A DNA stretch of 64,000 bases, from NCBI GenBank assembly GCA_900230115.1, contig LT907983.1, positions 558,001 through 622,000 on the forward strand, given 5' to 3'. The stretch comes from Spirosomataceae bacterium TFI 002. Lineage in GTDB: Bacteria > Bacteroidota > Bacteroidia > Cytophagales > Spirosomataceae. Shown here in pieces: positions 136 to 43,639 of this stretch. The first letter of the stretch is position 1, and each line of letters opens with the position of its first letter. A program made the translations under genes and the position numbers. Under the pieces are notes generated by a model. It searched no databases. It was given only the letters and a program-made list of their open reading frames with translations, and was not told the origin of the DNA.

Positions 136-3100
136 TTGCTTTTCAAACGATTTACCAACCTAAACTTTAAACAATTGAGAAAAATAGCATTCTTACTTTT
201 TATAACTCTACTATGCACAGATGCATGGTCCCAAACTAGTAAAGTACTTGTTTTTTCTAAAACTGCTGGATTCCGCCATTCGTCGATAGAAGCTGGACAA
301 AAGTATTTTGGAGAACTAGGAAAAGCTGAGAACATCAACATAACTTTTTCTGAAGATGCTTCTCTATTTACTGACGAAAACTTAAAAACTTTCAACGCAG
401 TCGTATTTTTAAACACTACGGGTGACATTCTTAATAATGACCAGCAAGTCAGCTTTGAAAGATACATTCAAGCTGGTGGTGGATTTATGGGAATTCATGC
501 TGCTGCAGATTGTGAATACGAGTGGCCTTGGTACAATGGACTAGTAGGGGCATATTTTGCAAGTCATCCCGGCGGTGATGTTGGCAATGTTCAGATGGGG
601 AAGATGAATGTTTTGGACAAAAATCATCCAAGTACAGCTCACTTGCCTAGCTCCTTCTCTAGAAAAGATGAATTTTATGACTTCAAGTCTCTCAAAAAGG
701 AACAGCTTAATTTCCTCATTGAGGTTGATGAAAAAAGTTACAAGCAAGGGAAAATGGGTGATTTCCACCCAATGGCTTGGAACCAAAACTATGATGGTGG
801 AAAAGTGTTTTACACCAACTTTGGTCATGTGGATGAAACTTTTCAGGAGAAAAGCATGATGGAACATTTAAAACAAGGCTTAATGTCTGTTATGTCTGAG
901 AAGCGAGACTACAGCTTGGCTACCTCAGTACAAGCACCAGAAGAAAATAGGTATGTCAAAACAGTTTTGATAGATAACTTAGATGAGCCTACCGAACTAG
1001 CTGCAATGCCAAATGGCAAAGTAATATTTGTAGAGCGAAAAGGTGCTGTAAAAGTATGGGACCCAAAAACAAATGAGGTAAATCTTGCAGCTCAAATGCC
1101 GGTATATACCAAATTTGAATATGGACTTATGGGCGTAGGAGTTGATCCAGATTTTGAAAATAACAATTGGGTTTATTTATTCTATTCTCCAGAAACAGAA
1201 GAACACAAAGACCAGTTTCTTTCAAGATTTGAGTTTGACCAATCAAACAATACTATAAAAATGGAGTCCGAGAAGGTCGTACTTCGTTTTCCTGCGAAGC
1301 GTGTAGAATGTTGCCATACTGGAGGTTCTATAGACTGGGATAACAAAGGAAACCTTTTCTTATCTACAGGAGATGATACAAACCCTTTTGCTTCTGATGG
1401 ATATGCACCTATTGACTTCTCTCCAAATAGAGCGGGCTGGGATGCCTTGCGTACCTCTGGAAACACAAATGACCTAAGAGGTAAGATATTGAGAATTACA
1501 CCAACTAAAGATGGGTCTTATACCATTCCTAGTGGTAACCTTTTCCCGGTTGGAATGGAGAAAACTAAGCCTGAGATATTCGTTATGGGTTGCAGAAACC
1601 CATACAGAATAGCAGTAGATAAAAAAACGAATTATTTGTATTGGGGAGATGTAGGGCCAGATGCTGGAAAAGCAAAGGCAGATCGAGGGCCAGATGGTCA
1701 GGTGGAGTTCAATCAAGCACGAGTTGCCGGTAACTATGGCTGGCCGCTTTTTACAGGCGATAATGATGCTTACAATGCCTATAACTTTGAGACAAAAGAA
1801 TCAGGACCAAAATTTGACCCTGCAAAACCAATAAATAATTCGCCAAATAACACTGGATTAAGAGAGTTACCTCCAGCTAACATACCTTTGGTTTGGTATG
1901 GTTATGGAGTTTCTGATCAATTCCCTTTGCTAGAGAAAGGCGGTGCAAACCCAATGGGTGGTCCCGTGTATTACAGCGATATGGTAAGTAACAATCCTAG
2001 AAAGTTACCAAGCTATGTTGATGGTAAGTTTTTCGCTTACGAATGGATGAGAGACTGGATTATCCTTATTGACATGGACGAAAATGGCAATTATAAAAGC
2101 ATGGAACGTTTCATGCCCAATACTAAGTTTTACCACCCAATGGATATGACCATTAGTAAAGATGGAGAGTTATTCCTTCTTGAATATGGAATGAATTGGT
2201 TCTCGAGAAATAAAGAAGCAATGCTTTCTAAAATTGATTTTAACCCTGGTAACAGAGAGCCTGTAGTAAATATTACAAGTTCAAAAAGTATTGGTGCGGC
2301 CCCCTTGAAAGTAGCATTCAATTCTGAAGGAACAATTGATTACGACGGAGATAAACTAACTTATGAATGGAATTTTGGTCCTAAAACAAGTAACGAAGTT
2401 AATCCTGTTTACACCTTTAAAAAACCAGGCTTATACGATGTCTCTCTTACTGTAAAGGATAATAGTGGAAATAGTAGCAAAAAGACTATTCAGATTCAAG
2501 TTGGTAATGAGGAACCTAAAATCGATATCACATTGAAAGGTAACCAATCCTTTTATTTCGGTCAAGATTCTTTTGATTACAGTGTTACCGTCAATGACAA
2601 AGAGGACGGTACTATTGGTAAAGGAATTAAATCAGAAGATGTAATTGTAAATGTCAACTACCTTGAGGGTTATGACAAAACTATGATTGCACAAGGTCAT
2701 CAACAAAATCTGAATTTTTCTAACGGAAAAAGAATGATAGAAAAAAATGACTGCTCAGCTTGTCACTCTGTTTCGTCAAAAAGTATTGGCCCCTCTTATA
2801 CAGATATAAGTGGTAAATACAAAAACAATAACAGTAATAAAAGTCTCTTAGCCACTAAGATAATCAACGGTGGTGGTGGAGTTTGGGGCGAGCAAGCTAT
2901 GGCTGCACACCCTGACCTTGCTGAAGACGATGCTAAAGCTATGGTAGAATATATTCTTTCTATCAATGATGAAAAAATAAAATCGCTCCCTACCTCTGCT
3001 ACATATGTAGCAGAAGCACATAAAGGCAAAAAAGAAGGTGCATACCTTATTCAAGCGACTTATACAGATAAAGGTGGTAAGATTGTAGGACCGCTATCAG

Positions 3101-3507
3101 GTACAAAAGTAGTGGCATTAAGAAACCCTATGCTAAAGTCAACATCATATGATGCAACAGAAAATACTATGAAGTTTGACATACCAGGCAAGGGTGAAGT
3201 TACGGTTGCTAATGACCTTTCGATTTTAAAATATACCAATATTGACTTCAAAGGAATTAAGAAAATTAAAATAGAAGCCTTAGGTCAAAAAGGTCAAACG
3301 GTTGGAGGGAATATTGAATTCAGAATTGGCTCAAAAGACGGCCCTTTGATAGGTGAAGCTAAAGTAGAAGAAGATAACTCCAGCCCCATTTTAGTAGAAC
3401 TGAGCAACCTTCCGGATGGTCAAAAAGACCTAGTTTTAGTATTTAAAAATGCTAAAGCTGAAGGAAAGCCATTATTTGCAGTGTCGTACCTGCAGTTTAT
3501 GCAATAA
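136..3507 (+). CDS. ThuA / glucose-sorbosone dehydrogenase / PKD / cytochrome c mosaic protein
   Basis: A secreted 1123-residue multidomain protein. After a signal peptide (about residues 15-32) come a ThuA-like trehalose-utilisation domain (about 35-250, with GIHAAAD and GDFHPMAW), a six-bladed PQQ-type glucose/sorbosone dehydrogenase propeller (about 275-700, with GLMGVGVDP and GCRNPYR), a PKD domain (about 708-800), and a class I cytochrome c domain. In that last domain C873-S-A-C-H877 binds haem and the Met in GEQAM is the likely axial ligand. A beta-rich C-terminal carbohydrate-binding module follows. This architecture and length are common in Bacteroidota. The likely role is periplasmic or surface sugar oxidation, with electrons passing to the fused haem. 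The substrate cannot be read from sequence. A strong terminator follows. Domain calls are by eye. Confidence 0.93.
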   Translation: MLFKRFTNLNFKQLRKIAFLLFITLLCTDAWSQTSKVLVFSKTAGFRHSSIEAGQKYFGELGKAENINITFSEDASLFTDENLKTFNAVVFLNTTGDILNNDQQVSFERYIQAGGGFMGIHAAADCEYEWPWYNGLVGAYFASHPGGDVGNVQMGKMNVLDKNHPSTAHLPSSFSRKDEFYDFKSLKKEQLNFLIEVDEKSYKQGKMGDFHPMAWNQNYDGGKVFYTNFGHVDETFQEKSMMEHLKQGLMSVMSEKRDYSLATSVQAPEENRYVKTVLIDNLDEPTELAAMPNGKVIFVERKGAVKVWDPKTNEVNLAAQMPVYTKFEYGLMGVGVDPDFENNNWVYLFYSPETEEHKDQFLSRFEFDQSNNTIKMESEKVVLRFPAKRVECCHTGGSIDWDNKGNLFLSTGDDTNPFASDGYAPIDFSPNRAGWDALRTSGNTNDLRGKILRITPTKDGSYTIPSGNLFPVGMEKTKPEIFVMGCRNPYRIAVDKKTNYLYWGDVGPDAGKAKADRGPDGQVEFNQARVAGNYGWPLFTGDNDAYNAYNFETKESGPKFDPAKPINNSPNNTGLRELPPANIPLVWYGYGVSDQFPLLEKGGANPMGGPVYYSDMVSNNPRKLPSYVDGKFFAYEWMRDWIILIDMDENGNYKSMERFMPNTKFYHPMDMTISKDGELFLLEYGMNWFSRNKEAMLSKIDFNPGNREPVVNITSSKSIGAAPLKVAFNSEGTIDYDGDKLTYEWNFGPKTSNEVNPVYTFKKPGLYDVSLTVKDNSGNSSKKTIQIQVGNEEPKIDITLKGNQSFYFGQDSFDYSVTVNDKEDGTIGKGIKSEDVIVNVNYLEGYDKTMIAQGHQQNLNFSNGKRMIEKNDCSACHSVSSKSIGPSYTDISGKYKNNNSNKSLLATKIINGGGGVWGEQAMAAHPDLAEDDAKAMVEYILSINDEKIKSLPTSATYVAEAHKGKKEGAYLIQATYTDKGGKIVGPLSGTKVVALRNPMLKSTSYDATENTMKFDIPGKGEVTVANDLSILKYTNIDFKGIKKIKIEALGQKGQTVGGNIEFRIGSKDGPLIGEAKVEEDNSSPILVELSNLPDGQKDLVLVFKNAKAEGKPLFAVSYLQFMQ

Positions 3508-3603: not shown

Positions 3604-4518
3604 ATGAAACGCTTTATTCATTTTCTCAAGGAAGAATTTGAGCTTACCTATCATGAAAGTAGGCTAAGTGCTATTTTCATTGTTCTCATGCTAATTGCAG
3701 CAATTATCCTTTTCGGCTTGAAATCCTTTCTATTTCAAAATGTCTCTAAAATTGAATTAAAAGAGTACGAACTCACAGCAGCAGCAAGAATAGAAAAGAA
3801 AAAGACATTTGAGAAATCTACTAGAAAGTACAACGAAGTTTCTTTAGAAAACTTCGATCCTAATACTGTTAAGGCCAGCGAGTTGATAAAGATGGGAGTA
3901 CCTAAATTCTTAGCAAACAACCTGGTAAACTTTCGGAATAAAGGGATGGTATACAAAACTAAAGAAGACCTAAAAAAGATATACGGCTGGGATGAAGAGT
4001 GGTATGCTAAACTAGAACCTTATATAATCGCCCCTGCCTATGAAGAAAGAAACGATTATAGTAATTTTGAAAGGATATATGAGCCTAAAGAATACAAGCC
4101 GAAGTACACTTATAAAAGGCCTACATCTTTTGACATTAATATGGCTAGTTCTGAAGAACTACAATCTATAAGTGGAATTGGCGAAGTTTTTGCAAATAGG
4201 ATTATTAAGTACAGAGATGCCTTAGGTGGATTTCATAGTATAAGTCAAGTAAAAGAGACTTATGGACTCAACCCAGTGGCATTTGACAGTTTAGCTGTAG
4301 TGGCAAAAGTTGCCCAGAGTCACAAAAAAATTAAAATAAATGAAATTGAAATAGGTGAGTTTAGACACCCATACCTTAAGACTTTTCAAATCAAAGGAAT
4401 TGTAAGTTATCGTAACCAACATGGAAACTATAAATCAATTAAAGACCTTGAAAAACTTAGAGTGCTAAACCCAGAGGTAATTTCTAAAATTGCTCCCTAT
4501 CTCAGCTTCGAAAACTAG
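3604..4518 (+). CDS. Membrane-anchored helix-hairpin-helix (ComEA-like) protein
   Basis: A 304-residue protein with one N-terminal membrane segment (about residues 22-43) followed by repeated helix-hairpin-helix modules. The clearest is at about 175-225 (DINMASSEELQSISGIGEV, then IIKYRD and GGF), the classic ComEA/T2SK-like DNA-binding repeat. Weaker copies lie at about 85-130 and 255-300. ComEA proteins bind incoming DNA in the periplasm during competence, but multi-HhH proteins of this size are common in Bacteroidota without proven competence. The stop is 4 bases from the next start, so the PAP2-type gene is probably co-transcribed. The family call is firm and the function is inferred. Confidence 0.85.
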   Translation: MKRFIHFLKEEFELTYHESRLSAIFIVLMLIAAIILFGLKSFLFQNVSKIELKEYELTAAARIEKKKTFEKSTRKYNEVSLENFDPNTVKASELIKMGVPKFLANNLVNFRNKGMVYKTKEDLKKIYGWDEEWYAKLEPYIIAPAYEERNDYSNFERIYEPKEYKPKYTYKRPTSFDINMASSEELQSISGIGEVFANRIIKYRDALGGFHSISQVKETYGLNPVAFDSLAVVAKVAQSHKKIKINEIEIGEFRHPYLKTFQIKGIVSYRNQHGNYKSIKDLEKLRVLNPEVISKIAPYLSFEN

Positions 4519-4522
4519 TAAA

Positions 4523-5897
4523 ATGAAAGTATTAACAAAGTTCACAGTAGTTTTCATGGCTACTTTCCTCACTTGGTCCTGCTCCGATACAGTGGAAGAA
4601 ATTGTTCCAGTTGAAATAGAGATTGATTCCGAAGTAGCTATAAAGTGGGCGAATCTAACTTTAGATGTTGTAAAGAACTCCCCGTACAACTCTCCTACCT
4701 ATGCCTCAAGGTCCTTAGCGTATATGGGTTTAAGCATGTATGAGTCAACGGTTCAAGGCAGTATTGTATACCAATCTGTGAGTACATCACTTAATGGATT
4801 AGGAGCCATGCCGATTGCAATTGATACGCTAGAAATAGACTGGGAATTGAGCTTAAATGCTGCTCAAGCTACCATGCTTCGAAGCTTATATCCACATGCA
4901 CCTGCAGCTTATTCAATGAAAATTGACTCTTTGAATCAAGCAATTGTTGAAGCTAAGAGAGTGAAAATGGTCAGTGATAAAACACTTAAGAACTCTGCGG
5001 AATTTGGAATAGCAATCGCAAAAAAAAATATACCAATGGTCTACAAGTGATGGTGGACATAAAGGGTATGAAAATACTTTTGACAGTCAGTATAAATTAA
5101 AGACGGGTATGCAATATTGGTATCCACCACGTGTAGGTCAATCTGCAGTTCCGCTTCCTATGCATCCACACTGGGGAGAAAACAGGAACTTCCTAATGAG
5201 CAATTCTCAATTGGAAATCCCAGAAATACTACCCTACTCTCACGAAAAAAGTAGTGCATATTATAAAGAAATGGAAACTGTATATTTGGTTCAAAAGAAC
5301 TTGGATCAAAAAAGCAAAGAAAACGCACTATGGTGGGGAGATGATCCGGCTGTTTCTGTAAGCCCTCCAGGTCATTCCTATTATTTGGCAAAAAAACTCC
5401 TTCAAGAGCATAAAGAGATTAAGCTTTTTGAAGCAACATCAACTTTTGCAAAAGTTGGTATTTCAGTTGCTGAATCATTCATTAATTGCTGGAAATGCAA
5501 ATTCCACTTTAGTGCAGAGCGACCAACTCCATACATCAAGAGAGTAATTGATGGTAGTTTTAATCAGTTTTGGCCGGAACCCCCATTTCCCGCGTTCACT
5601 TCTGGACATAGCACGCAAGCAGCATCGGCAGCAATTGCCATGATTAGTGTATTTGGAGACGACACACCATTCGTTGACGACTTGCATGAAGGAAGACATA
5701 GAGATGAATTTCGCAATGTTGATTTCAAATCAAGGAGCTATAATACCATTTGGGAAATGGCGGAGGATTGCGGTTATTCTAGAATCGAAGGTGGGATACA
5801 TACGCCACAAGATAATAAGGTAGGATTAAGCGAGGGCAAGAAGATCGGCCAAAACGTAGTAGATCTTCCTTGGAAAGTAACCGAAATAACACAATAG
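4523..5897 (+). pseudogene. PAP2 / vanadium-haloperoxidase family lipoprotein, frameshifted at an A9 run
   Basis: Two open frames belong to one gene. The first (4523-5050) starts MKVLTKF, has a lipobox ending at C20, and stops just after a run of nine A at 5020-5028. Reading that run as eight A joins it in frame (AKKIYQWSTSDGG) to the downstream frame ending at 5897, for a 457-residue product. The joined protein has the family signature: the AERP segment, TSGH (S360-G361-H362) and R420-x5-H426-x3-D430. Known relatives are periplasmic acid phosphatases or vanadium haloperoxidases. Every catalytic motif lies after the shift, so the first frame alone would be inactive. The shift could be a real mutation, a sequencing error or transcriptional slippage. 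The start at 4523 is chosen for the signal peptide. Confidence 0.85.
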
Positions 5898-5949: not shown

Positions 5950-6393
5950 ATGGACTCAAAAGAACTCAAAATTGCCATTGGTGGTGATCACGCTGGATTT
6001 GGCTATAAGCAAATTGTACTGAATTGGTTACAAGAACAAAATTACGAAACAGCGGATTTTGGACCTTATAGTGAAGATTCATTTGATTATCCTGACTCTG
6101 CACATCCATTAAGTGATGCTGTAGAAAAAGGCAGATTCGACTTTGGGATACTTATATGCGGCAGTGGAAATGGCGTGTGCATGACAGCCAATAAGCACCA
6201 AAACATAAGAGCTGGATTAGTATGGGATAATGAAGTAGCCAAACTTATACGACTTCATAACAACGCAAATGTGATTTGCCTACCTGCTAGGTTTATCTCC
6301 AAAGAGCAAGCTCTTGAATTTGTCCAAACTTTCTTAAGTACGGAATTTGAGGGAGGAAGACACGGAAGAAGAGTTGATAAGATCTCTTGTTAA
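5950..6393 (+). CDS. rpiB: RpiB/LacA/LacB-family sugar-phosphate isomerase
   Basis: A 147-residue protein of the usual RpiB length. It shows the substrate-binding GGDHAGF (D13, H14), the catalytic cysteine loop C70-GSGNG, the H103-NNAN segment and a C-terminal GGRHGRR phosphate-binding stretch. Ribose-5-phosphate isomerase B interconverts ribose 5-phosphate and ribulose 5-phosphate in the cytoplasm. Close relatives act on allose or galactose 6-phosphate, and the sequence does not exclude these. The stop abuts the stop of the convergent membrane-protein gene with no gap. Confidence 0.92.
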   Translation: MDSKELKIAIGGDHAGFGYKQIVLNWLQEQNYETADFGPYSEDSFDYPDSAHPLSDAVEKGRFDFGILICGSGNGVCMTANKHQNIRAGLVWDNEVAKLIRLHNNANVICLPARFISKEQALEFVQTFLSTEFEGGRHGRRVDKISC

Positions 6394-7797
6394 TTACTTT
6401 TTCAAGTAATATACATTTGGTTCAACAGCCTTGTATTGGTCTTTAATTTGAGGTAAAATTTTAAATACCTCTCCAAAAACCTTTGCATTATCCAGAATCA
6501 CCTCTGGTTTTTCTTTTCTAAACGTATCGTTTATAGAAATTATACTTTGGTAGTTATCAGGGTTTTGTAATTCAAACCTTGACAAGCTCCAGTTTAAATA
6601 CTTCGTGGCTGAAGTTGCGTCTTTGTATGCAGAATTATCCGAACCAGTAATTAATATCTTCTTACCTCTATACTTTTCAGCTACACTTTCATCTACTCTT
6701 ATACTACCTAAGTGGTTATATTCCATTCCTAACAAACTACTATACCCAACCCTTTGAACAACCAAGTTGACTGTTAGAAAAACAATAAAGATAACTTCTG
6801 GTAGGTAAGTACCTTTGAGATGCAGTATAAAAGCAGTAGCAAAAAAAGCAATAACGGGCACCAAAATCGCAAACTGATAAGTAGCGGTATTATCCGCAAG
6901 AATCACTGCAACCAAGCTTACCATTGCCAATATCAAAACAATTTGATGTGCTCGGTTTTGATAACTGTTATATCTCGATATTGAAAATATTCTTAAAATA
7001 CCTAGGACCATCAATACAAACGAGAACATAAACACGAAAAGCGAATTGTAGAAATTACTAAAGCTAAATGCCTTGATCCTAAAAATACTCTCAAGCCACT
7101 GGTCTCTAAATTCACCTAAGGAATCAAAGAAGCTATAGTACAAACCAAAAAATAAGAAAGGTAAAGCGAAACCAAGGAACAGTAACAAAAACTGCCTTAG
7201 GTTAAGTTTAGAATAAAGTAACAAAGAAATAATAGCCCATACTACAAGTATAGAAACTGGAAAGTGGGTCAATGACCCTAATCCGATGAAGAATCCTATT
7301 TCAAAACTATGATTTGTATTAATTTGTGAAGTTTCTGTTTGTTTAAGGACACTATTAAGAGCAAACAAAATAAACGTGGTAGAGATCAATGGAGGGCTTA
7401 GCTTTTGTAAATCAAATGAAACGCTCATGATCAATATATATATCAAGGCCGGTACGTAGGTTTTTTCTATATATAGTTTACGATTGGCACAAGTATTATT
7501 AAAAAACCAGGCTTGCAAAAAGACCAAAATCAAAGCAGTAAGCTCAAAAAAAAGTGAGTCTTTACCTATCAAGGTATTTACGAGGTAATAAATCAATGCA
7601 ACGATTGGCGAAGTCGAAGTCCAAATATCCTTATAAATCTGGTTTCCTTCGGCCATTTTTTGACCCGTAAGCTGCCATTCTACCTCTGGAATGAGTGTAG
7701 GTAACTCCCCTATTCCAAAAGGTAACTTAACCAACAGCAATATCACCAAAATTGACAATACTTGGAAAGTAGAGAAAATGCGAAAAAATGTAATCAA
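6394..7797 (-). CDS. Polytopic membrane protein, possibly DUF6427-like
   Basis: A 467-residue protein with about ten or more hydrophobic segments across residues 10-350 and a soluble C-terminal part (about 360-467). The early loop carries a charged, aromatic stretch (EVEWQLTGQKMAEG, then IYKDIW) that resembles the first extracellular loop of GT-C-type membrane proteins and of DUF6427 proteins in Bacteroidota. I cannot identify a catalytic residue with confidence. It converges with rpiB and diverges from rbfA. The membrane topology is clear; the family is a guess. Confidence 0.8.
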   Translation of the reverse strand: MITFFRIFSTFQVLSILVILLLVKLPFGIGELPTLIPEVEWQLTGQKMAEGNQIYKDIWTSTSPIVALIYYLVNTLIGKDSLFFELTALILVFLQAWFFNNTCANRKLYIEKTYVPALIYILIMSVSFDLQKLSPPLISTTFILFALNSVLKQTETSQINTNHSFEIGFFIGLGSLTHFPVSILVVWAIISLLLYSKLNLRQFLLLFLGFALPFLFFGLYYSFFDSLGEFRDQWLESIFRIKAFSFSNFYNSLFVFMFSFVLMVLGILRIFSISRYNSYQNRAHQIVLILAMVSLVAVILADNTATYQFAILVPVIAFFATAFILHLKGTYLPEVIFIVFLTVNLVVQRVGYSSLLGMEYNHLGSIRVDESVAEKYRGKKILITGSDNSAYKDATSATKYLNWSLSRFELQNPDNYQSIISINDTFRKEKPEVILDNAKVFGEVFKILPQIKDQYKAVEPNVYYLKK

Positions 7798-17247: not shown

Positions 17248-18018
17248 ATGAAACGAATTATAGGCTTAGTAGTTGTCATTTCTTTTGTGCTTAACGGTTG
17301 CAAAGAAAAGGAAATTGTAGAGGCTAAAAAATCTTGGTTTGTTAGTGAAATCACAAAACAAGATAACGAATCTTGGAAACTAACTTACGATTCCAACAAA
17401 AAGGTAAGTTCTTATATGAGGTTTTTACCAGATCAAAACACTACTGTTAAGTACAATTTAAAGTATAACCTTCTTGGACTCGTAGAATCCATTACCTTTC
17501 ATCGTTTAGGAAATCCTGAAAGTTCAGCTTCGTTTATATTCTCTTATAATTCTGATGGTAAACTAATTTCGTTTATAGATGACAGTAATAGCGAAGCAGA
17601 ACTTGCTGTTGTATACGAGAAGGACTATACCTTATTCGATTATTTGAATAGATACGATATGGCATTTTTCCTTAAGGAAGGTAATATTGCCAGAACGAGT
17701 TGCTTTGATTGCCCGCCATTAATAGATGAGTATAAGTATTCAGCTCTAGAGTTTGCCATTCCCAATGAATTGAAAACAGTTTGGCCTTTAGCGGATAGTC
17801 AGCCCTATTTTCTGGGTACTAGCGATTTGCTTTCCAAAAACATACCTACAAAATTCTCACTTGCAACTGGTTTTTGGGGAGGTGAAATGATAAATGAAAT
17901 AGAAACAAACGCTGAAAACTTGCCGATAAATATTAAAACTACTCAAGGCAAAGCTGTTTATGGCACCAACAACCCTGATAAAAACGATACTTGGACTATT
18001 AAGTATGTAGAGCTATAG
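17248..18018 (+). CDS. Lipoprotein of unknown function
   Basis: A 256-residue protein with a lipoprotein leader ending in VLNGC (C18). The body alternates short beta strands with polar turns (WKLTYDSNKKVSSY, SSASFIFSYNSDGKL), resembling the RHS/YD-like or DUF4595-type beta-repeat lipoproteins of Bacteroidota. No catalytic residues are evident. Expected location is the periplasm or outer-membrane face. Confidence 0.8.
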   Translation: MKRIIGLVVVISFVLNGCKEKEIVEAKKSWFVSEITKQDNESWKLTYDSNKKVSSYMRFLPDQNTTVKYNLKYNLLGLVESITFHRLGNPESSASFIFSYNSDGKLISFIDDSNSEAELAVVYEKDYTLFDYLNRYDMAFFLKEGNIARTSCFDCPPLIDEYKYSALEFAIPNELKTVWPLADSQPYFLGTSDLLSKNIPTKFSLATGFWGGEMINEIETNAENLPINIKTTQGKAVYGTNNPDKNDTWTIKYVEL

Positions 18019-32061: not shown

Positions 32062-32768
32062 AGTAATCAGATTTTTTGTTTAAGAATTAAAAAAAAAGCG
32101 AGTAGTTAAATAAACAGCCAGAAAGAATCCTGACGATTAGAAATTTCTATTAACTTAAAAGGTTACTACTTCACTTGTATTGGATACTTTAATGCCTAAG
32201 CTAATCCCAAAAAAAAAAATATGTTTAGAAAATCAATGAGAAATAAATCACTTAGACTGATATCTTAATTTATATTAAGATCTATTAAAATTTAAAACAA
32301 TTTGTTTTGGTCAATCCTAAAGTATAGAAACCTGTAGTACGTGATACTCATTAGACCTTAGCTTACTGATATCCACCCTCCTCCCGATAATGCACAAAAT
32401 AAGCCGAAACAATTACATTATTGCGGATAGTGACTGTCCCTTCTCATACCTATTGCAATGAATTTATTTCACATTTAACTTTAAATAGCATACCAAACCC
32501 TAAGAATTTCGTAGGCGATATAAAAAGCCCAAAGCGGTTGAGGCGAAAGGGGATCAGGCAACGATTACGCCCAAACTAAATTTAGATTTTCTTGAAATAT
32601 TCCATGAGCAGTTTCGAATACATTAAAGGACTCATTTCAACCAGACTTACTTCGCGTTATAGGACCAGTAAAAAAAATTGGAAGGAAATGTTACCAATGT
32701 CACTTTTGTTCATCTATAGTTCGATACTTTCGATTCTTAAAGTGAGACTTTGGGGACCAAAGTCAACC
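32062..32768. other. Gene-poor region upstream of SusC
   Basis: About 700 bases with no gene I can support. An open frame on the plus strand (from ATG 32604, 70 codons) runs into the convergent lipoprotein gene and has a basic composition without a recognisable domain. It may be chance or a transposase remnant. The SusC promoter should lie in the left end, but no consensus element is clear. Confidence 0.4.
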
Positions 32769-43547: not shown

Positions 43548-43639
43548 GATTTCCTACTTTAATGTTACTACTAAGTTTTTTTTTTAAAAAAAATATTTAA
43601 TCGAGACTAACCTTCATCTCAACTATTCTAAAAAATCTA

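Follow-up and report, generated by a model that had tools for sequence, protein, structure and literature searches.

The vanadate site of vanadium-dependent haloperoxidases is marked by the motifs RP, SGH and R-G-H-D, as given in the available text of PMC4859513. Poly-A frameshifts with rescue by slippage are known or have been proposed in Blochmannia and Buchnera (PMC3017870), and the dnaX gene of Thermus uses nine A (PMC1088944), some of these cases resting on tracts that several species share or on demonstrated products. Neither is present at the locus described here. Like the frameshifted genes of Blochmannia, the gene here carries one indel within a run of A and is intact apart from it, but some of the Blochmannia frameshifts are common to several species, whereas the tract of our gene occurs in the source genome alone, and Blochmannia has a reduced endosymbiont genome, which the source genome is not (PMC3017870, part of the text). 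Our own literature searches, one for a haloperoxidase with a frameshift and a poly-A tract and one for complete bacterial genomes with indel errors at homopolymers, found one unrelated paper and none, respectively.

In the window, by which we mean the whole 64,000-nucleotide stretch that was analysed, one PAP2/vanadium-haloperoxidase-like lipoprotein gene (4523-5897) is split by a run of nine A into two parts. The features of the locus are as follows.

3604..4518, plus strand: upstream neighbour, a helix-hairpin-helix (ComEA-like) protein, TIGR00426 over cut-off; 4 bases separate its end from the start of the broken gene
4523..5050, plus strand: front part (175 aa) of the split gene; holds a lipoprotein-like signal and the haloperoxidase-like protein's N-terminal region, but no active-site motif
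5013..5897, plus strand: downstream open frame with the PAP2 domain; first ATG 5109, stop 5895-5897
5020..5028, plus strand: run of nine A, the point of frame change; judged by the spacing in homologs, eight would be expected
5048..5050, plus strand: premature TGA of the upstream frame
5499..5525, plus strand: K-x6-R-P motif (KFHFSAERP), in the downstream frame
5598..5609, plus strand: TSGH motif, in the downstream frame
5778..5813, plus strand: SR-x5-H-x3-D motif (SRIEGGIHTPQD), in the downstream frame
5950..6393, plus strand: downstream neighbour, ribose-5-phosphate isomerase B (rpiB), TIGR01120 over cut-off

Opening at ATG 4523, the upstream frame closes after 175 codons with the TGA at 5048-5050, and the downstream frame lies at +1 relative to it. 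Codon scores are coding-like on either side of the run (28.7 and 25.2), the strand being the same but the frame different, and the nine A themselves are the product of codons for Ala-Lys-Lys-Ile. Apart from the frame change no lesion was found in the gene; the lipoprotein signal of the front part (MKVLTKFTVVFMATFLTWSC) was assigned by eye only, with similar N-termini in the orthologs. The split proposed by an earlier note on this DNA is thus borne out, the run being placed exactly, the coding signal lying on both sides of it and the two halves matching the same homologs in order. The note's arithmetic, by which eight A would yield a single protein of 457 residues, is likewise correct and agrees with the offset seen in homologs, and the active-site motifs which it ascribed to the gene were all found, every one of them in the downstream frame.

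As regards the identity of the enzyme, the back part exceeds the gathering cut-off of PF01569 (PAP2 superfamily) barely, with 27.3 bits against 27.2 in a profile search. The match to the solved vanadium-dependent haloperoxidase PDB 4cit is far clearer (E 2.6e-28, 235 residues aligned); it sets in at residue 18 of the C part, which is 262 residues long, and takes in the SGH and SR...GGIH regions. The structures 4cit and 4usz, the Zobellia iodoperoxidase, thereby align with the back part of the broken gene, which differs from them in being frame-broken and in having a putative halide activity. All three vanadate-site motifs as well as a match to a solved member are present, and by sequence the protein would belong to the vanadium-dependent haloperoxidases; the RP motif is part of the fuller K-x6-R-P pattern at 5499-5525.

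The C part was matched in 212 of the 222 genomes of the family, the named relatives, which include Jiulongibacter, Lacihabitans and Emticicia, putting the source genome in or near the Spirosomataceae, and in viral contigs nothing related to the broken gene was detected at the search sensitivity used. The helix-hairpin-helix neighbour is also found at L006-L009 and L016, and rpiB at L006-L009; the four orthologs flanked by both genes (L006-L009) are all intact, with open frames of 455-472 codons. These orthologs of Jiulongibacter and near genera (L006/L180, L007/L182, L008/L181, L009) share the neighbours of our gene, its approximate length and 61-65% identity over the C part, but unlike it they are unbroken and carry no A-run at the site. 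Of the genomes examined, only this one has the gene broken, the orthologs in the same gene setting being intact; in this environmental bacterium it is otherwise the ordinary ortholog of an exported PAP2/vanadium-haloperoxidase-like protein that is conserved in the Spirosomataceae. At L006:764-1492 and L009:2281-3099 an antisense gene lies between the haloperoxidase-like gene and rpiB; this antisense gene is absent from the window. Further upstream in the window, a frame of 1123 codons (136-3507) was seen by eye to consist of ThuA-like, sugar-dehydrogenase-like, PKD-like and cytochrome-c-like parts.

At the run itself, 113 loci gave 92 distinct proteins readable at the site (L257 is cut, and the remainder are repeats of proteins already counted). 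Both halves lie in one open frame in 91 of them, and the 92nd, the paralog L004 of the same genome, is a single frame of 482 codons whose front half was unmatched by BLAST. The offset between the halves is that of a tract of eight A in 70 of the 92. The earlier note had suggested looking for an A-run at this site in relatives, and none turned up: no run longer than six A occurs at this position in any of the 92 homologs, the longest being the A6 of L016, and although homopolymers of six or seven were found within 36 bases around the site at five loci, only that of L016 sits at the exact position. A tract kept in related genes would be expected of slipped-strand phase variation, and a conserved slippery tract with a conserved frame transition of programmed transcriptional slippage; the 92 homologs hold neither, and a conserved slippage site was rejected.

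A phase switch, in which the tract gains or loses an A at replication and so turns an exported enzyme on or off within the population, has in its favour that the protein is exported and the tract slippery, a pairing familiar from phase-variable genes (PMC3711429). Against it stand not only the homologs but also the composition of the window, where A/T runs of nine and of eight are, if anything, rarer than a first-order Markov model of its sequence predicts (3 observed against 5.4 expected, and 10 against 15.2), and the fact that the codons for Lys-Lys-Ile explain the tract without further assumption. Among the genomes searched the source genome is the only one of its genus. We regard such a switch as improbable. 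The run of nine A is in itself unremarkable for the source genome, long A/T runs not being enriched; what exceeds chance is not the run but that a conserved gene changes frame there. Two further tracts of the window may be recorded here, an A11 run at 32209-32219 and, at 43576-43593, a T10 directly followed by A8, which form a pure T/A inverted repeat.

Slippage of the RNA polymerase on the nine A could instead place a share of the mRNA in the right frame and provide some full-length enzyme. The precedents from Blochmannia, Buchnera and Thermus cited above speak for such a mechanism, as does the lack of any other decay in the gene, but rescue of the frame requires an mRNA that has lost one A or gained two, and E. 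coli RNA polymerase was reported to give no deletion and hardly any insertion product on the A-runs tested in the available part of PMC6260861, for which reason we disfavour this explanation. In line with this, fewer than 1% of the transcription deletions of E. coli begin in homopolymers, deletions tied to homopolymers being rare there and more frequent in Buchnera (PMC5574713, as far as the accessible text goes). The tract is, moreover, without conservation in the homologs, and the 23 other genes of this genome that carry nine A in frame (among 100 such runs examined) suggest that strong slippage on such runs would be costly; altogether we would give transcriptional slippage very little credence. 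A programmed shift of the ribosome is the least credible of the accounts and close to negligible. A-runs are slippery for ribosomes also (PMC3711429, in part), but on A-AAA-AAA a -1 shift, the usual kind, would bring the ribosome into the third frame and not into that of the enzyme, which lies at +1 and would need a +1 step, and here again the site is without conservation in the 92 homologs.

A more serious rival is an error of base calling or assembly: the cells would have eight A, the gene would be intact and an ordinary protein of 457 residues would be made. A single lesion in a conserved gene with intact relatives is what a recent unprogrammed indel or a young pseudogene looks like, and a sequencing error would look identical. 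The conserved gene, its conserved place, the intact state of each of the four orthologs flanked by the same two genes and the absence of any other lesion agree with an error, and PMC3711429, which dates from 2013, would put most BLAST-validated singleton frameshifts down to sequencing errors, not to genuine indels. How the assembly treats other runs of the same kind argues the other way. The genome holds 129 runs of nine A, of which 100 were examined: 23 sit in frame within genes, 75 fell outside genes or gave no score, and two were flagged as shifts, namely the broken gene and L117, the latter an antisense artefact when read by eye. Hence 23 of the 24 clearly scored in-gene runs among those examined keep their frame, the broken gene being the single clear exception, and a general failure of the assembly at homopolymers is unsupported because of these 23. 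In 864 kb, the in-gene A/T runs that keep the frame number 911 of six, 211 of seven, 32 of eight and 3 of nine bases, and the source assembly is a single contig with completeness 100; it would seem to be mostly right at such runs.

Other split genes were sought with two detectors. The first, run over 464 kb (with 2,500 bases masked in L106), gave nine rows including the broken gene; of the other eight, seven looked by eye like ordinary junctions between genes or noise from the antisense strand, and the eighth was L112 17732. Here a second gene is clearly broken at an A-run, near 17697 (L112 16658-18000; G000:C1 about 4736658-4738000): a GldB_lipo/DUF2268 protease-like front and an AMPK1_CBM-like (glycogen-binding) back lie in different frames, and in the relative L153 the two are fused in one frame of 440 codons. 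The second detector covered 864 kb and gave 17 rows, the last of them the window's own gene. Thirteen of these rows, together with L112 17697 and L095, were read individually; L166 9846 and 9836 are a single place, and L112 14044 was left out of this reading. At most of the places the junction contains a start codon. As the second detector missed L112 17697, the survey of split genes is incomplete. L177 10125 was rejected as a split gene, being two different genes (TonB_C and M23), and a possible split tyrosine integrase was seen near an A6 at L114:5908-7246 (near 6649, minus strand), the back half of which matches Phage_integrase, the front half having no match.

With these two cases, breaks at tracts of about eight amount to a few per cent of such tracts, a rate that is as compatible with slippage in the cell as with slippage during sequencing. 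The two clear splits each differ by a single base from a tract of eight, one being longer and the other shorter, which lends some support to the error, and the split of L112 fits reading errors as well as mutation; in the choice between a real base and a miscalled one, the sequence data fit both. We consider an error a substantial prospect, somewhat short of an even chance. One might also see in the A8/A9 tract a young contingency locus of a free-living member of the Spirosomataceae, at which slipped-strand switching would turn the exported enzyme on and off, with the gene near L112 17697, which also has a signal-like start, as another of the same class, an idea we judge to be about as improbable as the phase switch in its general form.

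The reading we tentatively prefer, at close to an even chance, is a recent mutation by slippage at replication. Codons for Lys-Lys-Ile would by chance have formed a tract of eight A, to which strand slippage would have added one A in the sequenced lineage, recently enough for the rest of the gene to be undecayed; the outcome would be a truncated exported product of 175 residues without active site. What the sequences show is the frame change at the tract, the absence of any other lesion and the intact state of orthologs and paralogs; that the extra base is truly in the cells, that it is recent and that function was lost we infer. Translation is unlikely to restore the enzyme: an internal start at ATG 5109 might yield no more than a signal-less C-terminal fragment, a restart in the right frame being rejected with the first ATG 58 bases beyond the stop, and the ATG at 5050 that overlaps the TGA opens a frame of only 16 residues. 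Loss of the enzyme would probably be tolerable because four further relatives of the protein exist in the genome, all with long open frames; two haloperoxidase-like paralogs of the same genome, L005 and L002, lie side by side at G000:C1:1004234-1006300. In the trees, the end branch of the N half (0.75) falls within the range of its four nearest relatives (0.48-0.85), and that of the C half (0.48, against 0.22-0.37) is the longest of its five-member clade. With branch lengths near those of the orthologs there is no sign of long decay and an old pseudogene was rejected; a short or slightly older relaxation may nevertheless have taken place. Recent mutation is favoured because the halves match in order, the orthologs are intact, the 23 other in-gene runs of nine A are in frame, the branches are unexceptional and the paralogs are open.

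Among the four explanations offered by the earlier note, mutation and sequencing error therefore stand and jointly hold most of the probability, while the phase switch found no support in homologs or run counts and transcriptional slippage is disfavoured. The split is a feature of the sequence as deposited that would seem to have an ordinary cause, and nothing in it supports a programmed device. A single base at an A-run can cost a genome a conserved, syntenic haloperoxidase-like gene, or cause such a gene to be mistaken for a pseudogene, and a check of the reads is advisable before genes of this kind are labelled phase-variable. If the reads had mixed run lengths, the tract would be a contingency locus in a group of bacteria where such loci are, to our knowledge, little studied.
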